A DNA stretch of 34,451 nucleotides, taken from the NCBI GenBank assembly GCA_018653605.1, contig JABHYY010000027.1, positions 1-34,451 on the forward strand, in the 5' to 3' direction. Positions 2,464-31,162 of this stretch are shown one piece after another. Each line of letters begins with the position of its first letter. The stretch's first letter is position 1. Source of the DNA: an archaeon. GTDB taxonomy: Archaea; Nanobdellota; Nanobdellia; SCGC-AAA011-G17; GW2011-AR17. The position numbers were made by a program, and so were the translations under genes. Under the pieces are notes generated by a model. That model had not been told where the DNA came from, did not search any database, and saw only the letters and a program-made list of their open reading frames with translations.

Positions 2464-3129
2464 ATGAAGTTAAACAAAGATTTTGTTTATTTAATTGGAA
2501 CTATTTATGGTGATGGTTATATTAAAGATGGAACCAAATCCAAAAGAGATTTATCAAGAGATTATAAAATTAGTTTTGAATTGACTGATATAAATTTTTT
2601 AGAAGAGATAATATTGCCCATATTTAAAACAATAATAAAAACAAAATCAAAAGTAAGAACTAGAAAAAGAAAAAACAAACAAAGGAGTGGTATTTTAGAA
2701 ATTAGAAATAAAAAACTATACCTTTTTTTAACTGAAAACCTCAAAACACACAAAGGTCCCAAAACAAGAGACGTTAAAATTCCTAAAATAATGAGAAATT
2801 GGCCTAATTCATTAAAATCTGAATTTATAGCTGGATATTTTGATACTGATGGAGGATTTAGAGGGAATACAATAGGTTTTTCAACAAAAACAAAAGATTT
2901 CCAAGAGTATACAATACAAATACTTAGAGAAAAAGGAATAATTTCTTCAAAAGAAAAATGGTTAAACAAAAAATATAATGAATATTATTATGGAATAAGA
3001 ATTAAAAAAGACAATATAGATAAATTTTTAAATACCTTCAGATTACGAAACAGTAAGAAACTAGAAAGTATCAATGCTAGATTCCCATGCACGGGTGCCG
3101 GAGCGGTCAAACGGGCTGGAAGATGTTAA
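2464..3129 (+). CDS. LAGLIDADG homing endonuclease overlapping a tRNA gene
   Basis: 221 residues with two LAGLIDADG helices: LIGTIYGDG at residues 10-18 and FIAGYFDTDG at 121-130. Each carries the acidic residue (D17, D129) that binds catalytic metal, so this is a single-chain two-motif enzyme of the intron/intein-associated family. Such enzymes cut a long asymmetric site and spread by break repair. The gene starts 61 nt after eL37. Unusually it is not enclosed by an intron: its last 13 codons (209-221) are read from the 5' exon and intron of tRNA-Leu, with the stop TAA at 3127-3129 inside the intron. The C-terminal tail CTGAGAVKRAGRC is thus tRNA sequence. Very high A+T. It appears intact, but whether it cuts the tRNA gene is inference. 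Confidence 0.85.
   Translation: MKLNKDFVYLIGTIYGDGYIKDGTKSKRDLSRDYKISFELTDINFLEEIILPIFKTIIKTKSKVRTRKRKNKQRSGILEIRNKKLYLFLTENLKTHKGPKTRDVKIPKIMRNWPNSLKSEFIAGYFDTDGGFRGNTIGFSTKTKDFQEYTIQILREKGIISSKEKWLNKKYNEYYYGIRIKKDNIDKFLNTFRLRNSKKLESINARFPCTGAGAVKRAGRC
3026..3035 (+). promoter_or_regulatory. Possible TATA box for tRNA-Leu inside the endonuclease gene
   Basis: TTTTTAAATA lies about 58 nt before the tRNA 5' end, which would give a 5' leader of roughly 30 nt to be removed by RNase P. It lies within the last 35 codons of the endonuclease, so tRNA expression either uses this internal box or reads through from upstream. In such AT-rich DNA the match alone is weak. Confidence 0.3.
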
Positions 3130-3201
3130 GTAATTAATGTCTGGCTATGCTTAGGACCCAGTGGCTTAGTGTCTACGCAGGTTCGAACCCTGTCCCGTGC
3201 A
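3089..3201 (+). tRNA. tRNA-Leu (anticodon UAG), intron-containing
   Basis: The acceptor arms GCACGGG (3089-3095) and CCCGTGC (3194-3200) pair fully, with A73 at 3201. The T arm is GCAGG-TTCGAAC-CCTGT. A long variable arm (TGGCTTAGTGTCTACG) marks class II, and the anticodon loop CTTAGGA (3150-3156) shows UAG, giving leucine. The gene spans 113 nt; removing about 29 nt restores a five-base-pair anticodon stem, CTGG+G with CCCAG, and an 84-nt tRNA. Its 5' part is shared with the reading frame of the upstream endonuclease. CCA is not encoded. Confidence 0.9.
3120..3148 (+). other. Predicted tRNA-Leu intron at a non-canonical site
   Basis: Excision of these 29 nt joins CTGG (27-30) to GCTTAGGACCCAG and restores a full stem and a normal anticodon loop. 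The junction would be 30/31, in the anticodon stem, not the usual archaeal 37/38. I could not draw a clean bulge-helix-bulge, so the ends may shift by a base or two. The intron carries the endonuclease stop codon. Confidence 0.55.
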
Positions 3202-3249
3202 GATCTTTTTTTAACAAAATATTTAAACTTAAAGAAGTATAATAATATT

Positions 3250-3461: not shown

Positions 3462-4022
3462 TCAAAAATAAAGGATCTTAATTCTTTTCTCAATTCTATT
3501 TGTCATTTCAGCAAGAACCTTTGGTTCATCAAAATTTACCCAAACATCATAAGGAATTAAAAAGCCTTCAACAATATAGGACACAATAACTCTTCTAACA
3601 AAATCATCATCATCTAACCCTACATGCTCTTTCAAATAAGATTTTATCTCTAAAAATTCCTTCAAACTAACATGGTCCCAAAAATCCCTATAAACCAATT
3701 CAAACTTTTTCTTATATTGATTCATGTCAACAATTTCTGAAAACAAAACAACCTTTGATTTACATCTTCTTTGCAATTCTTCTTTATATTTTTTAAAAGA
3801 AAAATTTTGTTTAGCAAGAATTGATGCATTTGTATCAGCAATAATTTTAACATAATTCTTACCAACAAACTTTTCTTCAATCTCCTTAAACTCTATAAAC
3901 TTAGGAAGTTCTGTAAATTCATCTAATCTTTCACCATTAAAAATTTTAGCTAAATCTACATCAAAATCTAACTTACCATTCTTCAACACCCTTGGTGGAC
4001 ATTCCCAACTAAAGTATATCAT
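3462..4022 (-). CDS. Cyclodipeptide-synthase-like protein, shorter paralogue
   Basis: 186 residues, paralogous to the gene just upstream. Both share an N-terminal strand ending in WECP (C8 here), a second strand ending IADTN (62-65), a basic helix, and a Y-x3-F-x5-Y-x2-F helix (NQYKKKFELVYRDF). The order resembles tRNA-dependent cyclodipeptide synthases (Rossmann fold derived from class I aaRS), where a G-x-S serine ends strand 1 and a D-T follows strand 2. Here Cys sits where the serine would be, and SYIVEGF (Y149, E152) sits where Y-x3-E is expected but with shorter spacing. This is my by-eye remote match, not a search result. The start ATG overlaps the upstream stop (ATGA), so translation is coupled. 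Confidence 0.4.
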   Translation of the reverse strand: MIYFSWECPPRVLKNGKLDFDVDLAKIFNGERLDEFTELPKFIEFKEIEEKFVGKNYVKIIADTNASILAKQNFSFKKYKEELQRRCKSKVVLFSEIVDMNQYKKKFELVYRDFWDHVSLKEFLEIKSYLKEHVGLDDDDFVRRVIVSYIVEGFLIPYDVWVNFDEPKVLAEMTNRIEKRIKILYF

Positions 4023-4771
4023 CTTCTACCTCCTTCATACAAAACAAATAACCATGGACCTCTATTCTTATTTCCTAAATAACAATTAGCTAAAACAGGA
4101 AATGTAAACATTGCCTCATTTGGTATTGCAACAGGATTTTGAAACCAAGCTTCACGAGATAAGGCCGTCCTAATAACATATTCTTCAGCAGCATAACTAC
4201 TAATGGTCCTTATCCCCAGTTCTATTAGTCTTTCATCCATTTCATTCACTCCAGTATGTTTTAATAATTCGTCTAATTCACCCTTAAATTTATTTTTTCT
4301 TAAATATTGAGTTTCAGGGACATTATCTCTCCTAAGAGCAAAACTATACTTAACTCTATTAAACACTTCCATATACTCCCTATTAAACTCACAAAGAATT
4401 TTAGAAAAAGGGAAAACTCTAATCACACCATTTGAAATCTCATCAGCCTTGTCTTGTAGTTGTTGAGAAAAATTTGTCATAAACCTACTAACCTGCCTTC
4501 TTTTAGTATCACTATCAACAGTTGCAGGATACAAAATCAAAGGGTTAGTATCAGCTAAAAATTTATAATAATTAACTTTGATTCCATCTTGCCTCAAAGG
4601 CAAAATGACTCTTTCAACAAACTCTCTTTCTAATTCAGATAATTTAACCATCCTAGTTTTTTCAACATCATCAACCCAATCACATTCATATTCTAAATCT
4701 CCTGCAACTTTCAAATCAGTTCTAATAGGACATTCCCAATTATAGAAAGTTATTGGCCTGCCATTATCCAA
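4019..4771 (-). CDS. Cyclodipeptide-synthase-like protein, longer paralogue
   Basis: 250 residues from a TTG start at 4771. Features in order: strand ITFYNWECP with C14 where CDPS enzymes carry the nucleophilic serine; acidic insert 20-40; strand YYKFLADTN (73-76); basic helix TKRRQVSRFMTNF; RVFPFSKIL; helix REYMEVFNRVKYSF; then GIRTISSYAAEEYVI with Y193 and E197 in the Y-x3-E spacing of CDPS catalytic residues. CDPS enzymes make cyclic dipeptides from two aminoacyl-tRNAs; this identity is a remote, by-eye inference. The start is uncertain: the paralogue begins at the same strand, supporting TTG 4771, yet the only ribosome binding site lies at 4886 in another frame (separate entry). It lies 166 nt downstream of hisS. 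Confidence 0.45.
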   Translation of the reverse strand: MDNGRPITFYNWECPIRTDLKVAGDLEYECDWVDDVEKTRMVKLSELEREFVERVILPLRQDGIKVNYYKFLADTNPLILYPATVDSDTKRRQVSRFMTNFSQQLQDKADEISNGVIRVFPFSKILCEFNREYMEVFNRVKYSFALRRDNVPETQYLRKNKFKGELDELLKHTGVNEMDERLIELGIRTISSYAAEEYVIRTALSREAWFQNPVAIPNEAMFTFPVLANCYLGNKNRGPWLFVLYEGGRR

Positions 4772-4886
4772 ATTACCAAGAAAAACTCTATCTTCAATAG
4801 CAGTTCTTTTTTCATTTAAAACAAAATAATCTCTTACGTCGATGAATACAATCAGTGCTCTGCACCTTAGCCTCAGTTACTTTCAT
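4772..4886 (-). other. Frame-shifted 5' extension of the CDPS-like gene / 24-codon mini-ORF
   Basis: GGAG lies 9 nt before ATG 4886-4884, the best start signal in this gap. That ATG opens a 24-codon ORF (stop 4812-4814) that contains STDCIHRR. In the +1 frame, the same DNA is open from about 4876 into the CDPS-like gene, reading ALIVFIDVRDYFVLNEKRTA and further with no ATG. A one-base shift near 4855-4862 would join MKVTEAKVQ to ALIVFID and the downstream gene. So this is either a frameshifted start, a recoding site, a leader peptide, or chance. Confidence 0.4.
4841..4854 (-). repeat. DCIH repeat, copy A
   Basis: TGATTGTATTCATC on the minus strand, embedded in AGCACTGATTGTATTCATCG. Within the mini-ORF starting at 4886 it reads S-T-D-C-I-H-R. 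Identical core to the copies at 4943 and 6371. Confidence 0.7.
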
Positions 4887-4937
4887 TTTACTTTCTCCTG
4901 CATTTTAAGTCTGCTTGACTTTTTAGAAAAATCTTTT

Positions 4938-6179
4938 TTAATGATGAATACAATCACAACTTTTAAGTTTCTCAACAACACCAGAAACATCTAACTTATC
5001 TTCAATACCAGTTTCCATATTCTTCAAACTAAACTTGGCAGCTTTCAATTCATTCTCACCAACTACCAAAGCATATGGAATACCCATCTTGTTAACATAA
5101 TCCAAATTTTTAGAAATACTTTTACCTTTCAAATCAATATCACACTTAACACCAGCCACCCTCAACTCCTTAACAATCTTCAAACTTTCATTAAAACATT
5201 TTATTGGAATAACATAAACTTCAGTAACAGACTTACGAACTTTTTCCTTCCTTTTCAAAATTTCATAAATCGGTTCCAAACCAAAACTAATTCCAACAGC
5301 AGGCACTTCACCTTTACCCAAAAAACCACCAATCATTTTATCATATCGACCACCACCAGCAACAGAACTATCCAGCTCTTTACACTGCACTTCAAAAACA
5401 GTTCCAGTATAATAAGCCAAACCTCTAGCTAAAGTAAAGTCAATTTTATAATCACTAACTCCAAACAATTTCAAAAAATCTTCTAACTCATTCAACTCAT
5501 CCAACCCTTCATTATTTTTCAAACTTTTTTGCTTAACAATATCTAAAACTTTTTCACCATCAATACCTTTCTCTTCAAACTCTTTCTTAACACCTTCCTC
5601 ACCAATCTTTTCCAATTTATCCAAAGTTAAAATCGCACTATCTCTTTTACCCTCTTCAACACCAGCCTCTTCCATCATTGCATCCAACACTTTTCTATTA
5701 TTTATTCTAATAACAACTTTCAATCCAACCTTCTTAAAAAAATCAGAAGCAATAGCAACCATCTCTGCATCTACAAGCATAGACTTACAACCAGCCACAT
5801 CAACATCACACTGCCAAAACTCTCTCATCCTTCCTAACTTAATAGGCCCATCTCTAAACACTTTCTCAATCTGATACCTTTTGAAAGGCATCCTTAACTG
5901 AGGATTCATTGCAATAACCCTACAAAAAGGAACAGTCAGATCATACTTCAAACCAAGCCTTCTATCACCTTGATCTCGCAACTGAAAACCCTCTTTAAGT
6001 ATTTCAGCACCACCTGCATACTTTGCAGATAAAACATCCATTCTTTCCAAACAAGGTGTCTCTAAAGGAGAATAACCATACAACTCAAAAATCTCTCTTA
6101 ACTGATCAACAATCTTCTGCCTTAAGATTTTTTCCTCAGGCAAGAAATCCTTTGTTCCTTTAGCATTTAGTATTTTCAT
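4938..6179 (-). CDS. hisS: Histidyl-tRNA synthetase
   Basis: 413 residues, class II synthetase charging tRNA-His. Motif 2 is FRDGPIKLGRMREFWQCDVD (about 108-127). The histidine signature LARGLAYYTG is at 250-259 with the VFE that follows; GGGRYDKMIGGF and motif 3 VPAVGISFGLEP (292-303) complete the active site. The C-terminal anticodon-binding domain is about 318-406. I chose ATG 6179 because GAGGTGG lies 5 nt upstream and the protein begins with the usual MKILNAKGTKDFLPEE; the upstream open frame is tRNA. The tRNA-His gene ends 23 nt before this ATG, so both are probably on one transcript. The last seven residues, SCDCIHH, extend past the usual end and contain repeat copy B. Confidence 0.97.
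   Translation of the reverse strand: MKILNAKGTKDFLPEEKILRQKIVDQLREIFELYGYSPLETPCLERMDVLSAKYAGGAEILKEGFQLRDQGDRRLGLKYDLTVPFCRVIAMNPQLRMPFKRYQIEKVFRDGPIKLGRMREFWQCDVDVAGCKSMLVDAEMVAIASDFFKKVGLKVVIRINNRKVLDAMMEEAGVEEGKRDSAILTLDKLEKIGEEGVKKEFEEKGIDGEKVLDIVKQKSLKNNEGLDELNELEDFLKLFGVSDYKIDFTLARGLAYYTGTVFEVQCKELDSSVAGGGRYDKMIGGFLGKGEVPAVGISFGLEPIYEILKRKEKVRKSVTEVYVIPIKCFNESLKIVKELRVAGVKCDIDLKGKSISKNLDYVNKMGIPYALVVGENELKAAKFSLKNMETGIEDKLDVSGVVEKLKSCDCIHH
4943..4956 (-). repeat. DCIH repeat, copy B, at the end of hisS
   Basis: TGATTGTATTCATC on the minus strand, within AGTTGTGATTGTATTCATCA. It encodes the last residues of HisRS, S-C-D-C-I-H-H, just before the stop. Confidence 0.7.
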
Positions 6180-6202
6180 TGTCCACCTCTTTGAATATAA
6201 AG

Positions 6203-6304
6203 GACACCGGGCGAGAGTCGAACTCGCGTCTCGGGATCCACAATCCCAAATTCTAACCAATATTCCCCAAAGGGCGAACCCTTAAAGTTTAAACTACCGG
6301 TGTC
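6203..6304 (-). tRNA. tRNA-His (anticodon GUG) with D-loop insertion
   Basis: Minus strand. The acceptor pairs ACACCGG with CCGGTGT, and the gene encodes G at position -1 opposite C73, the tRNA-His identity element. T arm GCGAG-TTCGACT-CTCGC; anticodon arm TGGGA-TTGTGGA-TCCCG shows GUG. The span is 102 nt, about 26 too long. The surplus lies in the D loop and contains a hairpin AAGGG-TTCG-CCCTT (6284-6271 region); removing it leaves D stem GTTT/GAAT and a loop ending GGTTA. I interpret it as an intron at an unusual D-loop site; A residues on both sides make the exact ends ambiguous. A TATA box lies 30 nt upstream and hisS follows after 23 nt. Confidence 0.85.
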
Positions 6305-6329
6305 ATATGTAAATAAAATATTCATCCAC

Positions 6330-6340
6330 TTATAAAATTT
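6330..6340 (-). promoter_or_regulatory. TATA box of the tRNA-His/hisS unit
   Basis: Minus-strand AAATTTTATAAGTGG, with TTTATAA centred about 30 nt upstream of the tRNA-His 5' end. Good spacing for a start at or a few bases before G-1. Since hisS has only 23 nt of spacer, it probably shares this promoter. Confidence 0.55.
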
Positions 6341-6356
6341 TCCAAGAAAGTTCAAA

Positions 6357-6407
6357 CTAACAAAGCCATCGATGAATACAATCACCACTTATATTGTTAG
6401 TTTTCAT
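6357..6407 (-). CDS. Leaderless 16-residue mini-ORF containing DCIH
   Basis: MKTNNISGDCIHRWLC from ATG 6407 to TAG 6357. A TATA box centred 28 nt upstream (6431-6438) places transcription start on the ATG, the arrangement used by several real genes in this window. The ORF ends 53 nt before tRNA-His. The shared S-x-D-C-I-H-R with the mini-ORF at 4886 and the HisRS tail argues for more than chance. It could instead be an untranslated RNA or a decayed copy of a 5' region. Function unknown. Confidence 0.35.
   Translation of the reverse strand: MKTNNISGDCIHRWLC
6371..6384 (-). repeat. DCIH repeat, copy C
   Basis: TGATTGTATTCATC on the minus strand within AGTGGTGATTGTATTCATCG; reads S-G-D-C-I-H-R in the leaderless mini-ORF. 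It shares TGATTGTATTCATCGA with copy A and GTGATTGTATTCATC with copy B. Confidence 0.7.
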
Positions 6408-7283: not shown

Positions 7284-10200
7284 TTAACTTGAAACAACTG
7301 CAGAACAAATTCCTTCTCTAGAACTTCCTAAGATTCTTACATCATCATCATTTTCTAGACCACCACTTTCACAATCTTCTTTAAATCCTTCCCACATTGT
7401 AGTCCCATATTCAAAGTGCCAAGCTTCTCTACTATATCTTACCCAACCAACCTCATACATAATATTAGTCAACTCATTACTAGAATCCATAGAATGCAAT
7501 TCACCATCAGAATCATAATACTGGATATCTACAGCTCCCCCCTGTACATGAGGACAACCACTTCCATCAGTACCAGGGTCACAAGCTATATTCCCATTTC
7601 CACTTTGATACAAATCCCAAAAGTATAATTGATCATCATAACTCCTATAAGCTGAAATAACATTAATATTATAACCCACATCTTCAAACTCTTCTTCAGC
7701 CACTAACAATTTTTCATAAGCTTCAGAAGTCAACATACAACCATCACCAGTACATTCAACTGAATCAATATCTACAACCACTACATTAAAAACTCCTTCA
7801 GAACCACCACAATAAGAGTTATACAATTCATCAACATCCTGAGCATTAACATTTTCAACATAATTAGGATCACCAGAACAAGCAACACTTCTATCACAAG
7901 AAGGCCAACCATTATAACCTCTTAACCCAGCATCCCAACCAGTATAAGTTTTTTTATTCCCTGATTGTCCACTATAACAACAGTATTCATTACCATCTTC
8001 ATACTGATCTTTTCTATATACCAAATGACCAATACCTAAAATAATATTACACTCCATATCATAAGCATTATCACCAGAAGAACAACTTTTACCATTAGTA
8101 GAAGCTTCAGTTAAAATTGCACCACCACTATTAAACCAATCACCATGTGAACCTAAGTTTAACTGCATTACACCATAATCATTAGTAGAACTTCCATAAA
8201 CTTCACTTTGAGAATCACAATCAATTCCACTATCATCACAATGTTTAAAACTTGATTCTTGTTGAGCAACTTTCAAAGCAAGTTTTTTTCCTTCAGCATC
8301 TAAACCCAATTCATCAGCAACTTCACAAATTTTCTGAACAATTAATTTTTGATTAGCAGTATAACTACTAGCACTAGCATCATTAGAACCACTAGAATCA
8401 CCAACCTCACTACAAACACCACCACTATAACTACAAACTTTACCAAACTGACTAGTACAAATTTCAGACTCACACCCCTCTTGATCATCACTTAAATCAG
8501 TACACTCATCAGCATCTTTACAAGAATAACAATAATCATCAACAGAATACTTCTTCTCAACATAATAACAAGTACTACCAACATCATGACAACTATCAAC
8601 ACCACAAAAACTAACCCAACCATCACCACAAGATTCACAATCAAAAACAATTTGTTCCTCAAGCTCTTCTGTGCTAAAAGACAAAGTCCTCTTCAACAAC
8701 TCACTATCATACCTATCCAAGACAAGCAACTCAACTTCATCATCTCTACTTCCTGCAGTATAACCACAAATAACCTTACCACTATCTTCCTCACACTCTC
8801 TGCCACCTATGTAAGCTTTATCATTAGCTAACAAATTAGTAAACTCAAATCTAAATTCATCACCAACATCAACAACAAACAATAAATCATTAGTTACATC
8901 CTCTTCATCAGACTGGCCCTGAGATATTTTTAATCCAGTGTATTCAATATCCCCTCTACCTTTAACTTCACAAGCACCAGGAACAAATGACACTGCTTCT
9001 GCAAGAGAATACTGACCAGCAGCAGCATACTCAAAACTCATTGTATCTTCAATAAACACACCCCATTTTTGAATTAAATCAACAACATTTTTACAATTTC
9101 TTTTCTCTTCATCTTTATGCTCAGCCAACAACCTAGTAAATTCTGAAGAACTTTCTTCATCAGCCAAATAACTATCCAACCCAAGTGCTTGCTTACTCAA
9201 GTCCCAATTAGTTTCAGCTAATTCATCAGCAACAATTTCATTTTTCTCAGCATCCCTAATACTAAAACTACCTGAGTTAAGCCAACAATAACCAAGGAAC
9301 CTTCCAACATCATCATAATCACAAGTACCAATCATTCCCCAATCACCAGAAATTCCTTGACCCTTTCCAGGATTATCAACACTACAAACTCTTTGCACAC
9401 CAGTAGACAAAGCACCAAATTCATAAGGCAACAAAGAAGCTCCTCCAACATTTGCATTAGAAACATCATTCAAAGCAGGACTCATAGTTGCAGCATCAGG
9501 ATAACACTGTTCAGCACTAGAAATATTTTTTAATACCTCTCCAGCAACTAAACTATCTTTCATATAATCCAATGCAAACGAAGTACTAACCATTCCAAAG
9601 CCACACTGTTCTTGACCATTAATTGTAATACATAACTCATCAAACCCACTCTGTGTTACACAGTCCATAGTTTCATCAGCCATTCCAGCCTTCTCAATTG
9701 TACCACTAGTACCACCACATTCACTAGTCAAACCATAAGTCTGACCAGTCAAAGAGTTTCTCAAATAAACAGAATAAACAACCCTATCAATGTTAGCATT
9801 ATCACCAGCATAGATATGATAGAAAACTTGGTAAGCACTCTGTCCTAAAGTTTCTGAATAAGGTTTAACAGTCATATGTCCAGTAAACTGAGTAGGATCT
9901 TCAGGTGTTGCAATTTGATCAATAAAATCTCCAAACCAAGGAGTCTTAGCATATATTGCTTGCTTACAAATTTCAGTACCAACCTCTTGCATACTTCTTC
10001 CTCTAAATGCAGCAAACGCTTGGTTAGAATATTCAGTTGTAAAGTAAGTAAATGAGGATTTCACATTTTCCATATTCTCTTTAAACTGGAAGAACTCTCC
10101 ACCACCAGCTTGATCACCAGCACCAAACATCTTACCACCAAGGAAATCAAGTATTCCACCACTACCCTGGAAAATTGCAACTATCTCTCTAGTAAACAAC

Positions 10201-13200
10201 TCACACATATACAAACTATAAATACTATCACAAATTCCAACATACTCACCATCGAACTTTGCTGTCTCTAAACATTGAACCATTCCATCCACTTGTGATT
10301 CCCAGAACTTCAAACTAGCAAGTACACCAGTTAAACAAATAGGAACAGGATCACCACTTCCTTGAGGAAGAACAACAGATCCAACAAACCCACTCTGAAC
10401 AACATCATCAACATACCATCTTCCACCCAAGTTAAACCTTGATGGTGGACACATTACAGGATCACAAACAGTAAACAACAATTTACAATCACTAGGATTC
10501 ATAACTTCATAACATCCAGCAACACTACCAGTTTGTACACCAGAAGATTTTCCACTACTTACAGGAAAATCATGATTATCAATTGTAACTCTAGTATTTT
10601 CATTAAACTCAGTTCTTACAAACTGATGTATATGTGAAACATATTCATTATACATTGTAGTACTCAAACTAATTTCCGTTTCATGATGCACTTGCACATC
10701 ATCAGTTGTACATAACTTTCCATCAGCACCAACATTCCAAACAGAGAACCTACTAGCTTCATTTGTTTTTGAATACTCTTCAATCTTAACAAAATTACCA
10801 TCTTCATGAGGCAAACAATAAGGCATTCCAGAAAATTCACCAGTTCCCCAAATTTCAATAGTTGCATCATCAGCCCAGGTTTGTCTCAACTCACCAGAGT
10901 TAAATGCTTCCTCTCCCATGAAAATAACTTCTTTAGTTGATGTTATATACAACTTCTGTCCACTTCTAGTAGCAAGCTCTTGACTAACTACTGAAGCACT
11001 TTGTAATACTGCAGAATCAAAAGCTGCAAGCTGAGTATCAATAGTTGTTATAATTCCATCATAACCTTCACAACTTCCAGCACTTGTTTTAGTATAAGTT
11101 GCTTTCCATTCAGTTAAATAAGTTTTCAAATCAATAGTACTCATAACACTAACTTCGACTGAAGAACCACTATCAGTATAAACAATTCTATCTCTTGTTG
11201 AAGAACCAGTAAATATCTTTCCTGCTGACCTTATTGTCGCACTTTCAGATTCACACTTTTTTTCAAATGTAACAATATCATTAAGTATTGGATAACCTGC
11301 AACATCAACATCAAGTTCACCACCAGAAACATGTTGTTCATAAATACCGTTAAACATATTTTCTCTAGCATCCTCATCCAAACCATCAGCATTTTCTAAA
11401 GCTTCAGAAGCAGCAATACAAGCAGTAGTTCTTTGATCTAAATTATTCCCACCATAACCAGTTGTTAAATCATTAAGATACTGTTCATTCCCCGGTTGCA
11501 TCTCAGCACTTAACCTATTTTGTGCACCATAGAAAGCTTGATATTCTTGTTTTGTAGCATCAGACATAAACACACCAGCACCAACATACTCTTCACAATC
11601 CTCCAAACTCCCATTAAACTTACCACTCAAATCACTTTCCCAATTACCATAAATCCCAGCATCAGCATCATCCCTAGCCTGTCCATAAGCATCCATATCA
11701 TTTTCAATATCACTTGAATGATCCAACATACACTCATCATAAGTATTATACTCTCTAGTAGAATAATCCCCACTACTTCTTTCATGACAATAAGACTGCC
11801 AACCACTAGCACCATCAGGTCCAGAGATTGCATCACCACGAGCTTGTGCAGAAGTTGAACCAAAACTACTCTTTAAAGTTACAAAAGCAAACACAGCATA
11901 ACAAACCTTATTCCAATTTGTAACAAGCTTATCCAAAAAGTCAACAGTTTTCTCTAACTTCTCTTTCAAACTTTTAAACTTCTCTAACTTTTCATCAATC
12001 TGTTCAGGGTTCAATTCAAAAGCTCTTTGCTCAATAGGAATATGAATTGAAAAATTAGTTTTACTTTTCAAAGTTTCACCAGAACCAGGAATGATAGTCA
12101 AATGCACTTCCTTCTTAACATCAATATCCTTAATTTGAATTTGATGACTACTCAATGTAGCAGTCCCACCCTCAGCAACACTATCTTTAGATTTACTAGA
12201 ACTATACCCTTGAGCATCTTCAAGAACCTCTTTAGTAAAATAAACATAATCATCTTTAATACTACTAATCAACCAATTTACATTCTCACCATTATCATAA
12301 ACAGCAGAAGTAAACAAGTAATCACCTTCATAATAAGTTTCACTAATTCCATTGTCACTAATCACAGCACTAGTTAACTCTTCATCACTAGCATGTTCAA
12401 TTCTTAACAACTTAACTTGAACTTGCCTTGCAGAATCATCAATAGTAACTTCACCATAACTAAAATCACCAGACATAGTATTCATTAACTCAACAACTTT
12501 AGCATTAATATCTGAATCACCAACATACTGTCCTCTATTATCAACACGAGTGTAATAGTGTAAAGCTTTTTCATTAGCAACCATCTTATCATTTGCAGAA
12601 TCAAAATTACTAGCTAACAACTCATACAACTCACCAAGTTTAACCTCACCAAGATCCAGATAAGAAACTCCTTCTAAAGTTTCTTCATCACTAAAATCTT
12701 CAACCAAAACTTTATACTCAGCAATTGCAGAACAAATCAACTGATTCAAAACATTATCATCCAACTGAGCACTCTCATCAAATACAGTAGGCAACTCATC
12801 TAAATAATAAAACCCAATATCATTACAAGGATCACCAGACCCATACTCTTCAATCACAATAGTTTCACCATCAATAGAATAAAAATATCCAACAGGCAAA
12901 ATACTAACCAAAACTTCTTTCACAGTATACCCATCAACCATATTAAACCTATTTGTAGAGTCTAAAGCATTAGCAACATTAGTAACATCAACTCTAACCC
13001 CATACTGATTAAACACACTATCCAACTCATTCACAGGAACAGAATCAATTGTTTTATCAGTATAAATTATACTATCTCCACTCCTTGCAGAAGAATAAAA
13101 CTGTCTATTCAAATCAGTAGACTCACCTGACATACCCATAACAGTTGTAATAGTTTTCTTGTTACCTTTTTTATCTCTAATCTCCAACACATACTCAGTT

Positions 13201-14222
13201 CCACCACTTCCTCTTTGTTCATACAAATTTGAAACAGTCCAAGTTGAACCAGGGAAAAGAGACATATCTTCATTCAAAACCATTTGATAAGAATCACCAT
13301 CTACCATAACACTAGCAACAGCTCTTTCCTTTGCAGGATCTTTCAAAGAATCCAACCTAACCCTAAACTTAGAATTAGTCAAAGCAACCTCTTCAAGATC
13401 ACCCAAGTCAAAATAATTTGAAGTTTCACCAACATTCAAAGTTAAATCAGCAATAGCTCGAGGAGCACCAATGATTGGCCAGAACAAATCTTTGTTACTA
13501 TAAATTGTCAAATCAACTTGATTATCCATGATCTCTTTAGCACGAATAATTCCTCTTCCACCAAAAAAAGTATACCTACTACCTTCAGACTGCAACTTAT
13601 CCTCCCACTCATCCACATCCTCATCCTCAGGCAAAACTAAATAAGTTTGAGCCAAAGTAAACAACCTTTGCGCTTCAGTAAAATGAATCTCTGCACTAAA
13701 AGTCAAATTAACTTCATCAGGCATTTCAATTTCATTCTCTTGTTGTTTCAATGTAATCACAAGATAACCCAAAGTATCCAAATCCTGCTCAAGTGGCTTA
13801 ACATACTTAGGCTCACCACGAACAGCATCTTTTGTTTGAATATCAGCAGGCTTAACTTTAACTTTTTCAACTTCAATACCACCATACAAAGGTTCAGTTC
13901 CATCTTCATACCCAGTCAAAGTATTAACTAAAGTACCAGCAGTCAAACCAGAAAGAAACGCATAAACTCGAACATCATTATCAGCAAGTAAATTAGAAGT
14001 CAAAATTGTAGGCTCATAACTTCGAACAAAAATAGGAATTGTATCACCAGTATCATCCTCTTCAAAATTTTGCAAAGCCCTTTGTTCTTCTTCATCTTCC
14101 CAATCTAAATTTTCACCAGCAACAGCCTCTAATTCTTCATCTGAAATATCATCAGCAACAGCAAATGGCATGCTTACTAACAAAACCAATACAAATATTG
14201 CTAACCACCTTTTTACATTCAT
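7284..14222 (-). CDS. Giant secreted protein with lytic transglycosylase and VanY carboxypeptidase domains
   Basis: 2312 residues. A signal peptide (1-23, KRWLAIFVLVLLVSMPFAVA) leads to an acidic ectodomain with no recognised fold to about 1850, a coiled-coil/hydrophobic stretch near 735-790, and a Cys-rich section (about 1850-1950). An SLT-type lysozyme-like domain spans about 1955-2138: catalytic Glu is E1989 in QQESSF, followed by YGVMQLN and the RGYNGW segment. A peptidase M15/VanY domain follows (2160-2275): SAYRS, zinc ligands H2225 and D2232 in HVQGGAVD, and WHFEYG with H2269. Such domains cleave the glycan and peptide parts of bacterial peptidoglycan, which archaea lack. The ATG overlaps the upstream stop by 4 nt. 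All key residues are present. Confidence 0.88.
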   Translation of the reverse strand: MNVKRWLAIFVLVLLVSMPFAVADDISDEELEAVAGENLDWEDEEEQRALQNFEEDDTGDTIPIFVRSYEPTILTSNLLADNDVRVYAFLSGLTAGTLVNTLTGYEDGTEPLYGGIEVEKVKVKPADIQTKDAVRGEPKYVKPLEQDLDTLGYLVITLKQQENEIEMPDEVNLTFSAEIHFTEAQRLFTLAQTYLVLPEDEDVDEWEDKLQSEGSRYTFFGGRGIIRAKEIMDNQVDLTIYSNKDLFWPIIGAPRAIADLTLNVGETSNYFDLGDLEEVALTNSKFRVRLDSLKDPAKERAVASVMVDGDSYQMVLNEDMSLFPGSTWTVSNLYEQRGSGGTEYVLEIRDKKGNKKTITTVMGMSGESTDLNRQFYSSARSGDSIIYTDKTIDSVPVNELDSVFNQYGVRVDVTNVANALDSTNRFNMVDGYTVKEVLVSILPVGYFYSIDGETIVIEEYGSGDPCNDIGFYYLDELPTVFDESAQLDDNVLNQLICSAIAEYKVLVEDFSDEETLEGVSYLDLGEVKLGELYELLASNFDSANDKMVANEKALHYYTRVDNRGQYVGDSDINAKVVELMNTMSGDFSYGEVTIDDSARQVQVKLLRIEHASDEELTSAVISDNGISETYYEGDYLFTSAVYDNGENVNWLISSIKDDYVYFTKEVLEDAQGYSSSKSKDSVAEGGTATLSSHQIQIKDIDVKKEVHLTIIPGSGETLKSKTNFSIHIPIEQRAFELNPEQIDEKLEKFKSLKEKLEKTVDFLDKLVTNWNKVCYAVFAFVTLKSSFGSTSAQARGDAISGPDGASGWQSYCHERSSGDYSTREYNTYDECMLDHSSDIENDMDAYGQARDDADAGIYGNWESDLSGKFNGSLEDCEEYVGAGVFMSDATKQEYQAFYGAQNRLSAEMQPGNEQYLNDLTTGYGGNNLDQRTTACIAASEALENADGLDEDARENMFNGIYEQHVSGGELDVDVAGYPILNDIVTFEKKCESESATIRSAGKIFTGSSTRDRIVYTDSGSSVEVSVMSTIDLKTYLTEWKATYTKTSAGSCEGYDGIITTIDTQLAAFDSAVLQSASVVSQELATRSGQKLYITSTKEVIFMGEEAFNSGELRQTWADDATIEIWGTGEFSGMPYCLPHEDGNFVKIEEYSKTNEASRFSVWNVGADGKLCTTDDVQVHHETEISLSTTMYNEYVSHIHQFVRTEFNENTRVTIDNHDFPVSSGKSSGVQTGSVAGCYEVMNPSDCKLLFTVCDPVMCPPSRFNLGGRWYVDDVVQSGFVGSVVLPQGSGDPVPICLTGVLASLKFWESQVDGMVQCLETAKFDGEYVGICDSIYSLYMCELFTREIVAIFQGSGGILDFLGGKMFGAGDQAGGGEFFQFKENMENVKSSFTYFTTEYSNQAFAAFRGRSMQEVGTEICKQAIYAKTPWFGDFIDQIATPEDPTQFTGHMTVKPYSETLGQSAYQVFYHIYAGDNANIDRVVYSVYLRNSLTGQTYGLTSECGGTSGTIEKAGMADETMDCVTQSGFDELCITINGQEQCGFGMVSTSFALDYMKDSLVAGEVLKNISSAEQCYPDAATMSPALNDVSNANVGGASLLPYEFGALSTGVQRVCSVDNPGKGQGISGDWGMIGTCDYDDVGRFLGYCWLNSGSFSIRDAEKNEIVADELAETNWDLSKQALGLDSYLADEESSSEFTRLLAEHKDEEKRNCKNVVDLIQKWGVFIEDTMSFEYAAAGQYSLAEAVSFVPGACEVKGRGDIEYTGLKISQGQSDEEDVTNDLLFVVDVGDEFRFEFTNLLANDKAYIGGRECEEDSGKVICGYTAGSRDDEVELLVLDRYDSELLKRTLSFSTEELEEQIVFDCESCGDGWVSFCGVDSCHDVGSTCYYVEKKYSVDDYCYSCKDADECTDLSDDQEGCESEICTSQFGKVCSYSGGVCSEVGDSSGSNDASASSYTANQKLIVQKICEVADELGLDAEGKKLALKVAQQESSFKHCDDSGIDCDSQSEVYGSSTNDYGVMQLNLGSHGDWFNSGGAILTEASTNGKSCSSGDNAYDMECNIILGIGHLVYRKDQYEDGNEYCCYSGQSGNKKTYTGWDAGLRGYNGWPSCDRSVACSGDPNYVENVNAQDVDELYNSYCGGSEGVFNVVVVDIDSVECTGDGCMLTSEAYEKLLVAEEEFEDVGYNINVISAYRSYDDQLYFWDLYQSGNGNIACDPGTDGSGCPHVQGGAVDIQYYDSDGELHSMDSSNELTNIMYEVGWVRYSREAWHFEYGTTMWEGFKEDCESGGLENDDDVRILGSSREGICSAVVSS

Positions 14223-22891: not shown

Positions 22892-25800
22892 CTACTTTAG
22901 TAAATCATAAAGTTGTGTAGATATAACAGTTGGATGCACTGACCTTAGCTGTTCAGGTTTAATCAACACCTTCTTACCACTCATATCAACAAGTAAACCA
23001 CCAAACCCCTTTTTTGAAACAACAATCTCAACAACCTTACCAACAGTTTCACCATCAGCACTATATACATCATTACCCAACAACACTTCAGAAGACTCAG
23101 CCTTCTTTTTCTTAAACAACATTTTTTCAAGTAAATTTCTAAAGAACTCTTTAACCATTTCAAAACCATAAAGGAATTCAATTTTAATAAATCTCAAATT
23201 TAAAGAAACACCTTCATGCTGCATAACTTTTCTTCCAACAAACACTCCAACTACAATAAAAACAATAAATCCTAAAACATAATATATCCAACTAAAATTT
23301 TTAGAAGTTGGATCTCTAGGTGCCTGATAAACTAACTCACTCTCTTCAATTTTAATCTCACCACTAATAGCCTCAAATTGCACATGAGCTTGACCATTTT
23401 CAACTTTCTCCAACATAACAAACACATCAAAGAAACCATCACCATCCAAATCAAGATTCTGTCCCTGTCCAACACTTAAAGTAACTTCCTGAGAATCAAT
23501 CACAAAAGTTGCACTAGTTAACTGTAAATCAATAATCTCTAAAGGATAAGTTTCAATTGAATCTTCTTGAATAATCTTAAGATTAATCTCTTCTCCTTCA
23601 TCCATAATTTCAATTAATTCTTTTACTCCTTCCTCAACAACCTCTTCTATTTTCTCTTCCTCTTCTTCATCCCCATCACAAACAGTATTATTATTCTGAT
23701 CTAAACAACACTCAATCCCATGCCTTATGTAAGGAGGATCACAAACAACCTTTTGTGTTGCACCACCAGTAATTCCACTTCCACCACCACTACTTCCACC
23801 ACCAGAACTTTCAACAGCACCTTCAACAACAAAACTATCATAAGCAGGTGCAGTTCCACCAGCCCAAGTTACAATAATTCTAAACCTATAATCACCATTA
23901 CTTGAAGGAGAAGTTAAAGTTGCAGTAAAGTTAGTAGTACTATTTGAACCAACATAAATTGTTTGTTGACCAGAAGTATAATTTGTATCTTCAGCATCAT
24001 TAGTAATCCAATAATCAATAATAAAATCTTGACCAATATCAGGATTTTGATTAATCACTGAAACAACAGTATCAAAATCAACAGAAACATCAACAGAAGA
24101 TAAAGCATAAACAGTTGCATCAGCAGGACCACCATAACCAGGAATTCTAACAGTAGGTCTATTAGAATAGAACACAGTTAAATCAGTAGTAGTTGCAGTA
24201 CCCAAAGCAAACTGATGATTTGAATTACTTGCAGCTTTATCAATCAGAGTCAAATTAGACAACATTGAAGAAACACCTTCAGACAAATTCAAAGTAAAAG
24301 CAGTACCATTCAAATCAGTATCAACATAACTAAAATTAGCAATATCCTCACTTCCAGAATTATACAATGTAACTGAAACATTATATGTAACATTCAAAGA
24401 AGTTTCATTAACATAAACAACATTCTTTACAATAACCATTTGTTTTCCAGCTTCAGTATCAGGTATAGTCAAATTTAACTCAGTAGAATTTGCACTAATC
24501 ACAGTTCCAGAATAAGAATCAGTTCCATTCACAGTTGCCACAGACAACAACTGATAAACCAAAGTATCCTCTCTAGTAAAATTTGCAAGATAACTTCTAA
24601 CAACAGAAGAGTTTGCATTCACAGTAGACAAATCATAAGACCTTGGATCATCAGTTAAATTAACAGAAGTTGCATCAGCCAACCCTCTGTTAGTAACTCT
24701 CAAAGTAATATTATAATTAATAGTAGAATTAGAAATATTGAAAATTGTAGCAACTTTATCCAAAACAAACAATGCAGAACCACCAATTGAAAAAGTATCA
24801 ATACAAGGAATATCAGAACCTTGATAAGAAGTACTAGCATTCAAAGTATAACTACCAGCACTCAAATTATAAATTAAAGTTTCATAAGACCCATCATCAT
24901 CAGTTGTCAAATTACGAGAAATGTTCAAAACACCATCTGAATCATAAACACTTGCATTCACACCAGTTGCAGCCAACACACCAGAAGCATTTGAAACATC
25001 ACCCTGTACTAAAACCAAAGCACCTTGCTGATAAGGCCCACCAACATTACAAGTAAAATTCAAAGTACTTAAATTAAAAAATTGTATAGTAGAAGTATTA
25101 GTCCTTTCATCGTTAACAATAACAGTCCAATTATAAGCACCAGCATCAGAAATTTCCCAACTATAACTCAAAGTTGTACCATTAGTTTGATTATAAGAAG
25201 TGTTCAAAAGAGAATAAGTTCCACTAGCATTCCCCCCATAGAACCAAACTGTAAGATTATTTAACCCAGTATCAACATCATACACAGTTGCATTCAAAAG
25301 AAGAGATTCTACATTAGAAAAAAGAGAATTATTAGAAGGATAATTCATAACAATTGTAGGGGCAGTATTTCCTTGAATAGTAATTGACCTCTGTTCAGTC
25401 ATGTTCAAATTACCAAAACTATCATCAGCATAAACTTGATAAGAATAATTTGCATCATCTAAAGCAGAAGTTCCATCCTTAGATTGATTAACATATAAAC
25501 CCCACAAAGTAGAATTAACTTTATACAAATTAGTAAAATACAACTGAGAAACTTCTTCATCAGTCAAACCATAATCAAGTAAAACAAACTCATCTAAAAA
25601 ACCATCAAAATACTGATCAGACCCAGTGTACCACATTCCTAAATAAACATTATCAATTGAAGCAGGCAAATCCTTAGAAGTAGAACTTGTTCCTTCACTC
25701 ACACCATTAACATACAACTCATGATCAGTAGCATTTCTTGAAACAAAAACAAAATGATTCCAACCAGTTCTTGTTGCATCATCCTCATTAATCAAACTCA

Positions 25801-28800
25801 CACCATCATACCAAATCCTAACACCATTCCCACCAAAAGATTCATAAGGATAAAACGAAAATAAGTTACTTGCATCAGTTCCATCTCTAATTGCAAAAGC
25901 ACAAGCATTAGCACTATAGTCATCATCCCAAGCCCAGAAAGAAACAGTAAAACTACTTGCACTCTGTAAAGCAGTAATAGAACCCATATCAATATGATCA
26001 CCATCCCCACCATAAAGGAAACAATTTCCATACACACAAGAAGTATTAAGAACAACTCCACTTCCTGTTCCATTATTAGTATTCAAACCAATGTCAGCAA
26101 CCTGATTATCACTCTCACTCAAAGCACTTCTATTATCAAAATTCATCATAACAACAATTGAATCATTAAACATTGTATAATTTGTACCATTCCAATTATA
26201 AATCAAAGAACTCAAATCAGACTCAACAATTGAAACATTAGTAATTGCAAAATTATCCAAAGTTGTAACACCACTTGCTAAAGTAGGAGAAGTAAAATTA
26301 ATCAAAGGAGAATCAACATCAATAGAAAACACTGCAGACCCACTACCAATTGTATTATTAGTCAAGTTACAATAAACAGTCCAAGTGTTACTTCCAACAA
26401 CAGAACTCAAACCAGTAAAATTAATCCCATAGTCGACATAACTAGAATTAGTTGCCCCACCATCAATTGAATACCAACACACACTCAAGTTTTGTCCAAC
26501 AACAGTATAATTTAATTCAGTAACAGCACTTCCATATTCTCCAGCATGAACAGGATAACGAAGAGTAACAGTAGGAGGAGCAATACCAGTCAGGTTATTA
26601 ATTGTAACATTCCATTTTTCAGTAATTGCACCTATACTTAAATCTGAAGTTGTGTTAGCAAAAATAAAGAAAGTATAATTATTTCCAATAACACCAGTAG
26701 CATTTACATTCCAAGTTATAACTTGAGACTCACCATTATTCAAAGTTAAATTATAAGGATTTTGATTATAAGTATTAAAAGGAGTTGCAGATATGTTCAT
26801 TGACACCAACCCTGACTTAGAATCACCACCAACATAAATAACAATATCATCACTATCAGAATAAGATGAACCAGAAGACTCATCATAACCACAAGTTAAA
26901 GAAGTTGATGCAGCACTATAAATATTAATTGCCCTTATTGTATGATTACCAACAACATCATCTAATACAAAAGTTTTAGAATAATTCTTAAGACCACTAG
27001 CAATATCAACAGTCCTACCCATTTGCCTAAAATTCCCTTCACCAGCACTATCATTCGAATAAGCCCAAACAGCGTCTGGGCTACAACATCCAACACTAGT
27101 TGTAAATGTAACATTAACAGTATCACCACCTTCAAACTGAGAATTGTTTAAATCTTCAATGCTAATCCACCTAACTTGGAAAGGATAAGTACAAGTACTA
27201 CCATCAGCACAAGTATCAACAGTTCCATCACCACTTTCTTTACAACCATTAGCTAAACTACCAGAAGTATAAGGTGAACTGGTTGCCGAATCAACCTCAG
27301 GATCCAAACTCACATTAACAACACCACAATCAGTATTCGAACATGAAACATTCACACTAACAACAAATGATTTGTTCTGACTAGCATTTATATTACCAAT
27401 TGGAGTAATCATATTCAAATCCAAAATAGGACGAAGAGAAACATTCACAAACATAGAAGAATAATTAAAATTATTAGCAGTATCATTAACAGAAATATTC
27501 AACCAATACAACCCAACACCTAACAAAGAATTATTTTCTAAATAACCAGAACAATTAATTTTAAAATCACTATCATTCACACCAAAACAAGATATTGGAA
27601 AAGTATCATTCACACTAATTTGAACACCAAGAGAAACATTTTGATTAAGACTTTGATTTGTAATGTTAGTAAAAGCAGGAGAAGTCACATCAGGATTTAT
27701 TTCAATAGATCTATTACTACTCCAATTAAGATTTTCTAAAGTATCATAAACCAAACAATTCCAAGTGTAATTTCCATTTTCTAAACCAACAGTCCAAGTA
27801 ACTTCAGAACTCAAACCAGAAACAGCAGTAGACTGATTTGCAACAAAACTTGAATTTGTATTATCAGTAATATACAAACTAATATTTTTTACACCAAAAT
27901 TATCATAACCAGTACAATTAAAAGTAACATTTTTCACTCTATGATAATTAGTCGTATAAGTGGCAATAGGTTCATTCAAAGTAACATTAGGTTTTACAGT
28001 ATCCACAATAAATTTTACATCTTCACTACCGGTGTTTTGCCAACTATCATTACAATAAACAGTCCAATTGTTCCACCCTTGCAAAACATTAATACCCGTC
28101 CAATTTAAACCAGCACTTTGTGTTGTAGAATTCCAAAAACCAGAAGAGTTTGTCCACCAACAAGTATTAACTTGAACATTATCAGTAACAGAATAATTCA
28201 ATTCACTAACAAGATAAGAATAATTTGTTTTATTCAAAGGATAAGTAATATTAATTATAGGAGGAGTTCCATCAGTAACATTTGCAGTTATGATTGTAGA
28301 ATTTTGATGACCAACACTATCATTAACAGTAATATTCAACCAATAAAAACCAACAGTTAAAAGAGTATTATTTTCCAAAACTCCAGCAGTATTTATTTTA
28401 AAATTAGTAGTATCATTTACAGCAAAAGAATCAATTTTTCCATTATCAGTAGCATCAATGTCGTAAACTAATCCATCAGCATCATTAAATGTTTGATTTG
28501 CAATTGAACTAAAAGCAGGAGTATCAGTATCAACATAAAAAGTAATTGAATGATTATGAAGAGTGTTATCAGTCTGATTACAAAACAAAGTCCAATTATT
28601 CCATCCATCCAAACTTGTAACTCCTGCAAAATTTGTTCCTGCAGAAACAGCACTAGAATTAGCAGTAGAGTTTGACCACCAACAAGAATCCCAGGTAAGA
28701 TTTCCTACCAAAGTATAATTTAATTCAGTAACATTCAAATAAATTTCTTCAGCAACAGGGTAAGAAACTCTTGCTTTAGCTAAAAGATTTTCAACACCTA

Positions 28801-30105: not shown

Positions 30106-30128
30106 AATATAAATAATATTTATATTAT
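30104..30128. promoter_or_regulatory. Perfect inverted repeat, probable operator at the RHH start
   Basis: Arms ATAATATAAAT (30104-30114) and ATTTATATTAT (30118-30128) are exact reverse complements, 11 bp each, with a 3-nt spacer AAT. It covers the presumed transcription start and two bases of the RHH start codon, and overlaps the topoisomerase stop. Position and symmetry suit a dimeric repressor. Pure A/T composition makes a chance palindrome somewhat easier. Confidence 0.6.
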
Positions 30129-31162
30129 TTAGTATTTAAAGCTTTGCTTTTGATTTTCTCAACCAAATTAGGTTCAATATAATGATTCAAAGTAACAGTA
30201 AAACTATCTTCCCACAACCCACTCTTCTTAGAAAACTTCTTATGCCCTAAACCCTGAGCCACTGACAAGAAAAACAAATTCATTTCATCCTTAGTACATT
30301 TCCTGTGCTCTTTCAAAAACTCCTTAGCTTTAGCAGTAGCATAATAAGACCTAATAATATGAGGATAAAACTCCTTCCCACAATAGTTCCTAAAAGCTAA
30401 CTTAAACATATGATCATTAAGAACATGTCCTCTATCACTAACAAAAACATAATCTTTACATTTTTTCAAACAGGCCTTCAACCTCTTAACATAAGAAGCA
30501 GGAAAAGTTTTTCTAATATTAATAGGAACACCATCTTTACCTATAAAATCAAAAACAACATCATTACCAACAATCTTAATATCCTTCTTCTTTAATGTTG
30601 CCAAACCTTTATGTTTATGTGCTTTGTAATAAATTTCATTCCCAACACGAATATGAGTTTTCAAAAGTGTATACATCGGCAAAGCCATATAATCTTCTTT
30701 GTTCCTTAATGCAGAAGTAACTTTCTTCTTTAATATAGGATAAACCTTTTCAAAAGCTTTAACTTTCTTATACTTTCTATCTTTAGCTTTAGCTTTTTTA
30801 TCCAAAGTGTAAACATAAGAATAAGTTCCACCTTTGTTCTGGTATATAACATCCCAATGCTCATTTGATGTTTGATCATGAACACACAAGTTTTTTGCAA
30901 ATAGAGAATAAGCTTTGTCTAACTTTCTACCATCTGGCAAAATGTTTATTCTAGCACCTTGTTCTTTTCCTTCTGAAAGCTGGCCCTTTAGAAACCTTGA
31001 ATCCTTTTTATCTATCAGAAAATCAAAGTTTTTATGAGCTTTGAAAAGTTTAATAACTTTTTTTGCTTCTGGGAAAGTATTTTTACTCTTTTTCCAAGAC
31101 TTTTTAGTTTTTTCATAAACTTGCAAATTTATTTTAATTCTAAGTGTTCCTGGTTGTAGCAT
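30125..31162 (-). CDS. Type IB DNA topoisomerase
   Basis: 345 residues, the size of bacterial and poxviral TopIB, which relax supercoils through a 3'-phosphotyrosine. The full active-site set is visible: R172 in KTHIRVGNEIYY, K209 in FIGKDGVP (the beta-hairpin lysine), R271 in HIIRSYYAT, H307 in GLGHKKF and the nucleophile Y328 in TLNHYIEP. The GLATLKKKDIK stretch between the first two also fits the family's GL-x-TL signature. The N-terminal DNA-clamp region (1-130) is rich in Lys. A tyrosine recombinase is the main alternative, but RVGNE and GKDG are TopIB features. The gene is preceded by a TATA box 25 nt before ATG, so probably leaderless. TopIB is uncommon in archaea outside Thaumarchaeota-type lineages. 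Confidence 0.85.
   Translation of the reverse strand: MLQPGTLRIKINLQVYEKTKKSWKKSKNTFPEAKKVIKLFKAHKNFDFLIDKKDSRFLKGQLSEGKEQGARINILPDGRKLDKAYSLFAKNLCVHDQTSNEHWDVIYQNKGGTYSYVYTLDKKAKAKDRKYKKVKAFEKVYPILKKKVTSALRNKEDYMALPMYTLLKTHIRVGNEIYYKAHKHKGLATLKKKDIKIVGNDVVFDFIGKDGVPINIRKTFPASYVKRLKACLKKCKDYVFVSDRGHVLNDHMFKLAFRNYCGKEFYPHIIRSYYATAKAKEFLKEHRKCTKDEMNLFFLSVAQGLGHKKFSKKSGLWEDSFTVTLNHYIEPNLVEKIKSKALNTK
30133..30140 (-). promoter_or_regulatory. TATA box of the RHH/giant-protein operon
   Basis: Minus-strand AAAGCTTTAAATACT: BRE-like lead and TTTAAATA, centred about 32 nt before ATG 30105. It overlaps the last codons of the topoisomerase gene (A-L-N-T). Confidence 0.55.

Follow-up and report, generated by a model that had tools for sequence, protein, structure and literature searches.

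A candidate His-codon frameshift module and a gene pair with a predicted class I synthetase-like fold at the hisS locus of a Nanobdellota archaeon

Introduction

Why would an archaeon carry two genes resembling cyclodipeptide synthases (CDPSs) next to its gene for histidyl-tRNA synthetase (HisRS)? The window analyzed in the present study is the whole 34,451-nt contig JABHYY010000027.1 (assembly GCA_018653605.1) of an archaeon of the phylum Nanobdellota. Its small genome and the archaeal genes in the window suggest that it is probably a DPANN archaeon. An earlier reading of the letters alone (the sequence-only reading) had described tRNA-His, hisS and two further genes, here named P2 and P1, in this order and in one direction on the minus strand, and the gene calls bear this out (Table 1). 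It also proposed that the two proteins are remote homologues of CDPSs that might use the adjacent histidyl-tRNA for a His-containing cyclic dipeptide or another aminoacyl transfer. The results obtained point to a different role. We give an even chance to the explanation that the cluster is an operon for His-tRNA homeostasis, controlled by a module similar to that of bacterial prfB and carrying P2-P1 as an acquired accessory pair.

Results

A module with a single histidine codon precedes hisS

The 0.96-Mb genome contains three copies of the sequence TGATTGTATTCATC, all of them within the cluster (copy 1, 6384-6371; copy 2, 4956-4943; copy 3, 4854-4841). In the module, GAGnTGAT, which pairs with the anti-Shine-Dalgarno (anti-SD) sequence, is separated by 3 nt from the slip codon NTT, and a His codon comes next; the 0 frame soon stops, and the +1 frame leads to the next gene. 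It was present upstream of hisS in 22 of the 30 loci examined, in 11 families. The 0 frame of these hisS leaders reads M-x-R-V-D-C-I-H with variants, then a stop within 0-5 codons, and a His codon (CAT or CAC) is always present. Together with copies 2 and 3 in two genomes, 26 module copies were counted. Every one of the 26 has an upstream ATG in the 0 frame, NTT followed by CAT or CAC, and a 0-frame stop within nine codons.

The open frame of the leaders is the +1 frame. Between the module and the hisS start, the 22 leaders contain 8 stops in this frame versus 103 and 175 in the other two. The +1 frame is open from the NTG of the module to the hisS start in 16 of the 22 leaders (shuffle mean 0.46, maximum 3) and from the slip site in 17; the leaders are related by descent, so that the shuffle tests overstate their independence, and 11 families are represented. 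The open frame mostly passes through the tRNA-His gene, and its stop usually overlaps the ATG of hisS. A pure 0-frame His leader peptide was set aside as an incomplete reading, given that it is the +1 frame that stays open. The repeat was also considered as a target-site duplication or mobile element, which was rejected because it is conserved upstream of hisS in other families. Rfam regulatory RNAs, including the T-box, gave no match at the gathering score. In one genome (L024), the His leader is located directly before hisS with no tRNA-His between them, an arrangement suggestive of regulation of hisS and not of the tRNA.

Pairing with the anti-SD, which was seen at the 16S end of the relative G022 (GGATCACCTCC), peaks exactly before the slip codon (mean -5.0 kcal/mol versus -0.55 kcal/mol over all offsets). 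GAG has been lost in copy 1 of the window and in L042, L043 and L046; the next base is G, which restores GTGAT. Since the codon following NTT begins with C, a +1 slip would place the tRNA on UUC and trade a wobble for a full pair.

This arrangement resembles that of bacterial prfB, which encodes release factor 2 (RF2). In prfB, an SD-like sequence is located 3 nt before an NUU slip codon, the A-site codon is slow, and a 0-frame stop is nearby. The A-site codon is UGA, which is read by RF2, and the product feeds back on the sensed signal. The present module similarly has an SD-like sequence approximately 3 nt before NUU, an early 0-frame stop, an open +1 frame and a proposed feedback. However, it is archaeal, its A-site codon is a sense codon (CAT/CAC, or CCT before proS) instead of UGA, it is coupled to the gene that follows, in many cases by way of a tRNA gene, and the frameshift is predicted from sequence. 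We favor a programmed +1 frameshift at the module, with some reservation. We regard the case that this putative frameshift responds to the level of His-tRNA as evenly balanced.

The codon matches the operon in a proline version

A homologous leader in G022, MINSRVDLVPNQ followed by a stop, carries the Pro codon CCT and precedes tRNA-Pro and proS (ProRS by Pfam). Beyond the hisS leaders, the module scan covered G022, two contigs of G038 and most of the genome under study. Near the 37 predicted tRNA genes of G022, only two modules were detected, one with CAT before tRNA-His-hisS and one with CCT before tRNA-Pro-proS. The sequences of the His and Pro leaders resemble each other closely (GTTCATAACCAGTAA in L039 and GTTCCTAACCAGTAA in G022). 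Across 2.2 Mb from three genomes, the His form had one further match, in G038 (L156); this match is followed by neither a tRNA nor a long open reading frame (ORF) and was taken as chance.

Copy 3 and the start of P2

The gap between hisS and P2 holds a conserved SD and ATG 4886, which is in the 0 frame of copy 3 and not in the frame of P2. Upstream of TTG 4771, the frame of P2 stays open as far as 4876 and contains no ATG, GTG or TTG, only CTG, ATT and ATC. Homology to proteins of bacteria of the Candidate Phyla Radiation (CPR, described below) reaches slightly upstream of TTG 4771. A +1 slip at ATT-CAT from ATG 4886 would give a trans-frame P2 of 288 aa with 45 residues before TFYNW, versus 36-43 in the four CPR proteins with an N-terminal extension. 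Copy 3 appears to frameshift into P2, as judged from these frames. CTG 4855, with GGTG 7 nt before it, is a real alternative start. At the same position in G006, the nearest relative, an SD-ATG ORF (MSSIEDNVRSTGRIH...; L018 1220-1490) with the same module (ATT-CAC) follows hisS. The +1 frame there is about 55-60 codons long, and the protein that it would give has about 70 aa and ends in AEEFLYNLLN.

An undescribed family that includes P2 and P1

P1 and P2 are paralogues (31% identity). Both are considered to be real genes because they are full-length homologues of CPR proteins: each aligns with almost the whole of the CPR protein "B" (blastp E 1e-10 to 1e-22). All of the relatives in the scan of the genome collection were from CPR bacteria, namely, Wolfebacteria (L061), two Doudnabacteria (L062 and L063) and Wildermuthbacteria (L064). 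A search of 380 genomes of the phylum yielded a fifth CPR locus (G664). Each of the five loci has a second gene before that for B; its product, protein "A" (approximately 225 aa), is distantly related to B (hhalign probability 85%, E 6.5e-6).

P2-P1 was detected in none of 117 archaeal relatives. A profile search of 371 genomes of the archaeal phylum revealed elsewhere only weak, chance-like matches to the A1 profile (E 0.0015 and above). P2-P1 is an addition to the hisS locus in the present genome. The members tested were not named by Pfam, NCBIfam, PHROGs or PADLOC; matches in the latter two were at the level of chance, and a PADLOC methyltransferase match to B (E 0.014) was regarded as such. 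No relatives of P2 or of A/B were found in viral contigs and none of P2 in phages, and a PDB sequence search with the family returned nothing meaningful.

The AlphaFold2 model of B of L064 from a seven-sequence input was of high confidence (pLDDT 93.7, pTM 0.90). In a Foldseek comparison with PDB, the best 50 matches were TyrRS (many of them engineered variants), TrpRS and CDPS, with a probability of 1.00. TyrRS and TrpRS (class Ic) were at the top (E about 5e-6), and the CDPSs of Fluoribacter dumoffii and Rickettsiella grylli were among the best matches. TyrRS, TrpRS and CDPS led again when the B model was compared with viral models. We are highly confident that the predicted fold of the family is that of class I aminoacyl-tRNA synthetases (aaRSs) and CDPSs (HUP/Rossmann, class Ic), which agrees with the class I-like fold expected from the sequence-only reading, by way of a CPR homologue. 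Going by this model, CPR bacteria and the present archaeon share an undescribed family, that of P2 and P1, of class Ic aaRS/CDPS-like fold.

The proposed remote homology to CDPSs thus held for the fold, but not for membership of the CDPS family. The PF16715 hidden Markov model matched nothing in the genome under study or in four CPR genomes, and the active-site signature is missing. P1, P2 and the CPR proteins share 21 invariant residues, including W-E-C-P-x-R, A-D-T-N and Y..E. The catalytic Ser of G-x-S and the Y...E of CDPSs were not found; all seven sequences have the Cys of WECP-R and Y..E, the equivalence being by order and secondary structure. Since the strand ending in WEC-P is at the place of the CDPS strand ending in G-x-S-P, the invariant Cys may stand in for the catalytic Ser. 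HIGH and KMSKS motifs were not found in P1, P2 or the CPR relatives, and, therefore, P2 and P1 probably do not activate amino acids with ATP. The family is similar to CDPSs (notably ParcuCDPS of a Parcubacterium) in its class Ic Rossmann fold, size, lack of HIGH and KMSKS, occurrence in CPR bacteria and connection with histidine. It differs from them in the motifs described above, and because P2-P1 and A-B occur as a pair beside hisS or HisR. TyrRS and TrpRS provide the best fold matches; however, unlike them, the family has no HIGH, KMSKS or anticodon-binding domain.

A probable link of the family to histidine in CPR bacteria

In G664, the gene order is A, B, hisS and an EamA transporter, and B and hisS overlap. 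The hisS of G664 is only 27% identical to that of the window. Since this hisS is distant and the gene order is different, the association of the family with hisS probably arose twice independently. In L062, L063 and L064, the gene before A encodes a YerC/YecD TrpR-related regulator (TIGR02531, above the cut-off). YerC of Bacillus subtilis is the histidine repressor HisR, the DNA binding of which requires L-histidine (PMC9413887). In L064, and in this locus only, TACTTTACTATAGTAAAGCG directly upstream of yerC fits 12 of the 14 positions of the HisR-box consensus (4 of 2000 shuffles). A TIGR02531-family gene before A-B in three loci and a candidate HisR-like box in one recall the known HisR/YerC repressors (PMC9413887); in contrast to these, the CPR genes adjoin an enzyme pair of a new family, and their regulatory role is putative. 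The two Doudnabacteria share a different palindrome before yerC. In L063 (3505-3540 and 3888-4180), palindromic TATATC(A/G)TGCTAGCACGTTAGC is located before yerC and between yerC and A, and a related palindrome precedes yerC in L062; this may be the YerC operator of Doudnabacteria.

We consider a link of P2-P1 and A-B to histidine to be very probable because of the A-B-hisS operon, YerC/HisR beside A-B and the shared His-codon module in the window. The connection with histidyl-tRNA suggested by the sequence-only reading was borne out by the same three observations. Conservation of the gene order was split: among archaeal relatives, the order is unique to the present genome; across domains, it recurs as A-B-hisS in G664.

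Discussion

Proposed mechanism

We propose that the ribosome enters the module in the 0 frame, that the SD-like sequence pairs with the ribosomal anti-SD, and that NUU is held in the P site with the His codon in the A site. When His-tRNA is scarce, slow reading of CAU would allow a +1 slip from NUU to UUC. After a slip at copy 1, the shifted ribosome would read through the precursor of tRNA-His to the start of hisS and restart there, which would yield more HisRS. A slip at copy 3 would lead straight into P2 and give more P2-P1. When His-tRNA is plentiful, the His codon would be read in the 0 frame and the ribosome would stop, and the overall effect would be negative feedback. In CPR bacteria, HisR would likewise release A-B at low histidine. 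Since HisR and the His-codon module would both act at low histidine, we suggest that the pair has a role under histidine shortage rather than in the synthesis of a His-consuming secondary product.

P2 and P1 would most likely bind or use His-tRNA(His), possibly with the invariant Cys of WECP-R as the acyl acceptor. We infer this chemistry, with tRNA-His binding or aminoacyl transfer as the likeliest activity given the modeled fold; the fold, the homology, the linkage to hisS and YerC, the conservation of the module and the open +1 frames were computed. The use of His-tRNA as a substrate is a tentative suggestion.

Several points weigh against this explanation. When P2 was modeled with P1 alone, the pLDDT was 46.7; the good model is that of the CPR homologue. 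A profile comparison with seven CDPSs gave a weak result (probability 11%). Few members of the family were found (7 B-type sequences in 6 genomes). Copy 3 of the window has the weakest anti-SD pairing (-1.3 kcal/mol), and the +1 frame of the Pro version in G022 stops inside tRNA-Pro. Furthermore, changes in the leader before the slip site fall where the +1 frame tolerates them better, which also fits initiation at NTG.

Alternative explanations

The last point leads to an account without frameshifting, in which the +1 frame starts at the invariant NTG of the module (TTG, GTG, CTG or ATG) and the 0-frame MxRVDCIH ORF merely competes. Position 5 is variable with TG fixed, the changes fit [LMV][IV][VIL]F in the +1 frame, and CTG 4855 of P2 is preceded by the GGTG mentioned above. 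However, two leaders, L039 of G031 and that of proS in G022, have a TAG in the +1 frame after NTG and before the slip site, and initiation upstream in this frame cannot pass the stop; L039 is still open from the slip site to hisS. All copies, including the one inside hisS, can be entered by ribosomes in the 0 frame, the regulatory codon switches to Pro before proS, and anti-SD pairing also accounts for the fixed TG. We therefore regard initiation at NTG as rather unlikely. Ribosome-mediated attenuation, in which a leader peptide with a His codon controls an RNA hairpin, is a very improbable alternative. As in the his and trp attenuators, the leader is a short, conserved ORF with a codon cognate to the downstream operon, in this case ending at the His codon of a synthetase leader, and a promoter-like TATA sequence lies just upstream of it. 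Unlike these attenuators, the module has a single regulatory codon and a conserved +1 frame, with no conserved terminator or antiterminator hairpin (three predicted pairs, no covariation), and attenuation leaves the open +1 frame through tRNA-His unexplained.

The other alternatives concern P2-P1. CDPS activity of these proteins, with His-tRNA as the substrate and a His-containing cyclic dipeptide or similar amide as the product, would be in line with the fold of the B model and the linkage to hisS, and the EamA transporter in G664 could export the product. The failure to match PF16715 and the replacements of Ser by Cys and of Y...E by Y..E (by alignment, not superposition) argue against this. 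Moreover, both regulatory devices would raise the pair when histidine or His-tRNA is scarce, and a pair switched on at histidine shortage is ill suited to spending His-tRNA on a side product. We consider CDPS activity unlikely, and the cyclic dipeptide of the sequence-only reading was not supported. A chance neighbor acquired by horizontal transfer and functionally unrelated to hisS would be compatible with the absence of P2-P1 from all other archaeal relatives searched and with the nearest homologues being bacterial. This explanation, already disfavored, appears quite improbable in view of the independent adjacency to hisS in G664 despite the distant hisS, YerC in three other CPR loci and the shared module in front of P2.

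Significance of a cognate-codon switch

Returning to the frameshift-controlled operon, we lean slightly toward the view that it is a natural "hungry codon" switch: archaeal synthetase operons would sense their own charged tRNA through a prfB-like +1 slip at a single cognate codon; after the slip, the ribosome would translate the precursor tRNA and arrive at the start of the synthetase gene, and a copy of the device would have come to control a new aaRS/CDPS-like pair with a function at low His-tRNA. A review of recoding in 2016 stated that starvation-induced ("hungry codon") frameshifting could yield functional trans-frame proteins and that no examples were known (PMC5009743). A review of archaeal recoding in 2021 listed one proven -1 case, and +1 frameshifting only in a halovirus (PMC8211752). 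If the present explanation is true, a conserved +1 module with a cognate codon before hisS, and once before proS, would fill both gaps, as far as novelty may be judged from part of the literature. It would also show how minimal archaea set the levels of their synthetases and explain why a frame is open across a tRNA gene. With the P2/B family, the predicted class Ic aaRS/CDPS fold gains an unannotated branch tied to histidine in archaea and CPR bacteria.

Gene calls and neighboring features

HisRS matches TIGR00442 (E 8e-108, above the cut-off), and the start of hisS is corrected to 6179 from the sequence-only reading. The P2/P1 overlap at ATGA was confirmed (4019-4022); the gap between hisS and P2 is not short, with 166 nt from the hisS stop to TTG 4771, the first ordinary start codon of P2. 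In an ARAGORN scan of the lineage, tRNA-His adjoined hisS in 12 of 19 hisS loci. This adjacency is ordinary in the lineage, and P2-P1 after hisS is the unusual part. G006, with a hisS 71% identical to that of the window, has the same order around hisS and a tRNA-derived frame on the far side, without P2-P1.

Table 1. Features of the hisS cluster (positions in the 34,451-nt window)
Feature	Position	Strand	Remarks
Leader ORF, 0 frame of copy 1, MKTNNISGDCIHRWLC then stop	6357..6407	-	Upstream of tRNA-His; homologues upstream of hisS in relatives
Module copy 1: SD-like GGTGAT, 3 nt (TGT), ATT 6377-6375, CAT 6374-6372	6372..6386	-	
tRNA-His(GTG) gene, 103 nt	6202..6304	-	Aligned with the 72-nt tRNA-His of G006
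+1 frame from slip site through tRNA-His to TGA overlapping hisS ATG	6176..6373	-	
hisS, histidyl-tRNA synthetase, 413 aa	4938..6179	-	C-terminus ...SCDCIHH then stop
Module copy 2, within the 3' end of hisS	4943..4956	-	+1 frame ends at TGA 4885-4883 overlapping ATG 4886; same in G006
Short ORF with SD AGGAGA 4899-4894, 0 frame of copy 3, MKVTEAKVQSTDCIHRRKRLFCFK then stop	4812..4886	-	Start region conserved in G006
Module copy 3: slip ATT 4847-4845, His CAT 4844-4842	4841..4854	-	+1 frame is that of P2
P2, class I aaRS/CDPS-like protein (predicted), 250 aa from TTG 4771	4019..4771	-	
P1, shortened paralogue of P2, 186 aa	3462..4022	-	

Relative to that of G006, the tRNA-His of the window has 30 nt inserted in the D-loop region (6259-6288); the ARAGORN call covers 6202-6273 only, and the Rfam tRNA model at the gathering score misses this gene. 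The insertion contains a GGG-TTCG-CCC hairpin on the minus strand, and its length keeps the +1 frame open.

On the plus strand of the window (2464-3202), the end of a LAGLIDADG-type ORF (2464-3129) overlaps a class II tRNA-like gene (3088-3202). ARAGORN finds the latter only when introns are allowed (31-nt intron), and its label tRNA-Pro(agg) is doubtful. The tRNA-derived frame of G006 is at the matching place. Two very large secreted-type proteins are encoded near the cluster on the minus strand (7284-14222, 2312 aa; 22892-29956, 2354 aa), and the C-terminal region of the former reads like a peptidoglycan hydrolase or peptidase domain. The protein encoded at 30125-31162 on the minus strand had no match in PHROGs and resembles a tyrosine recombinase near its C-terminus.

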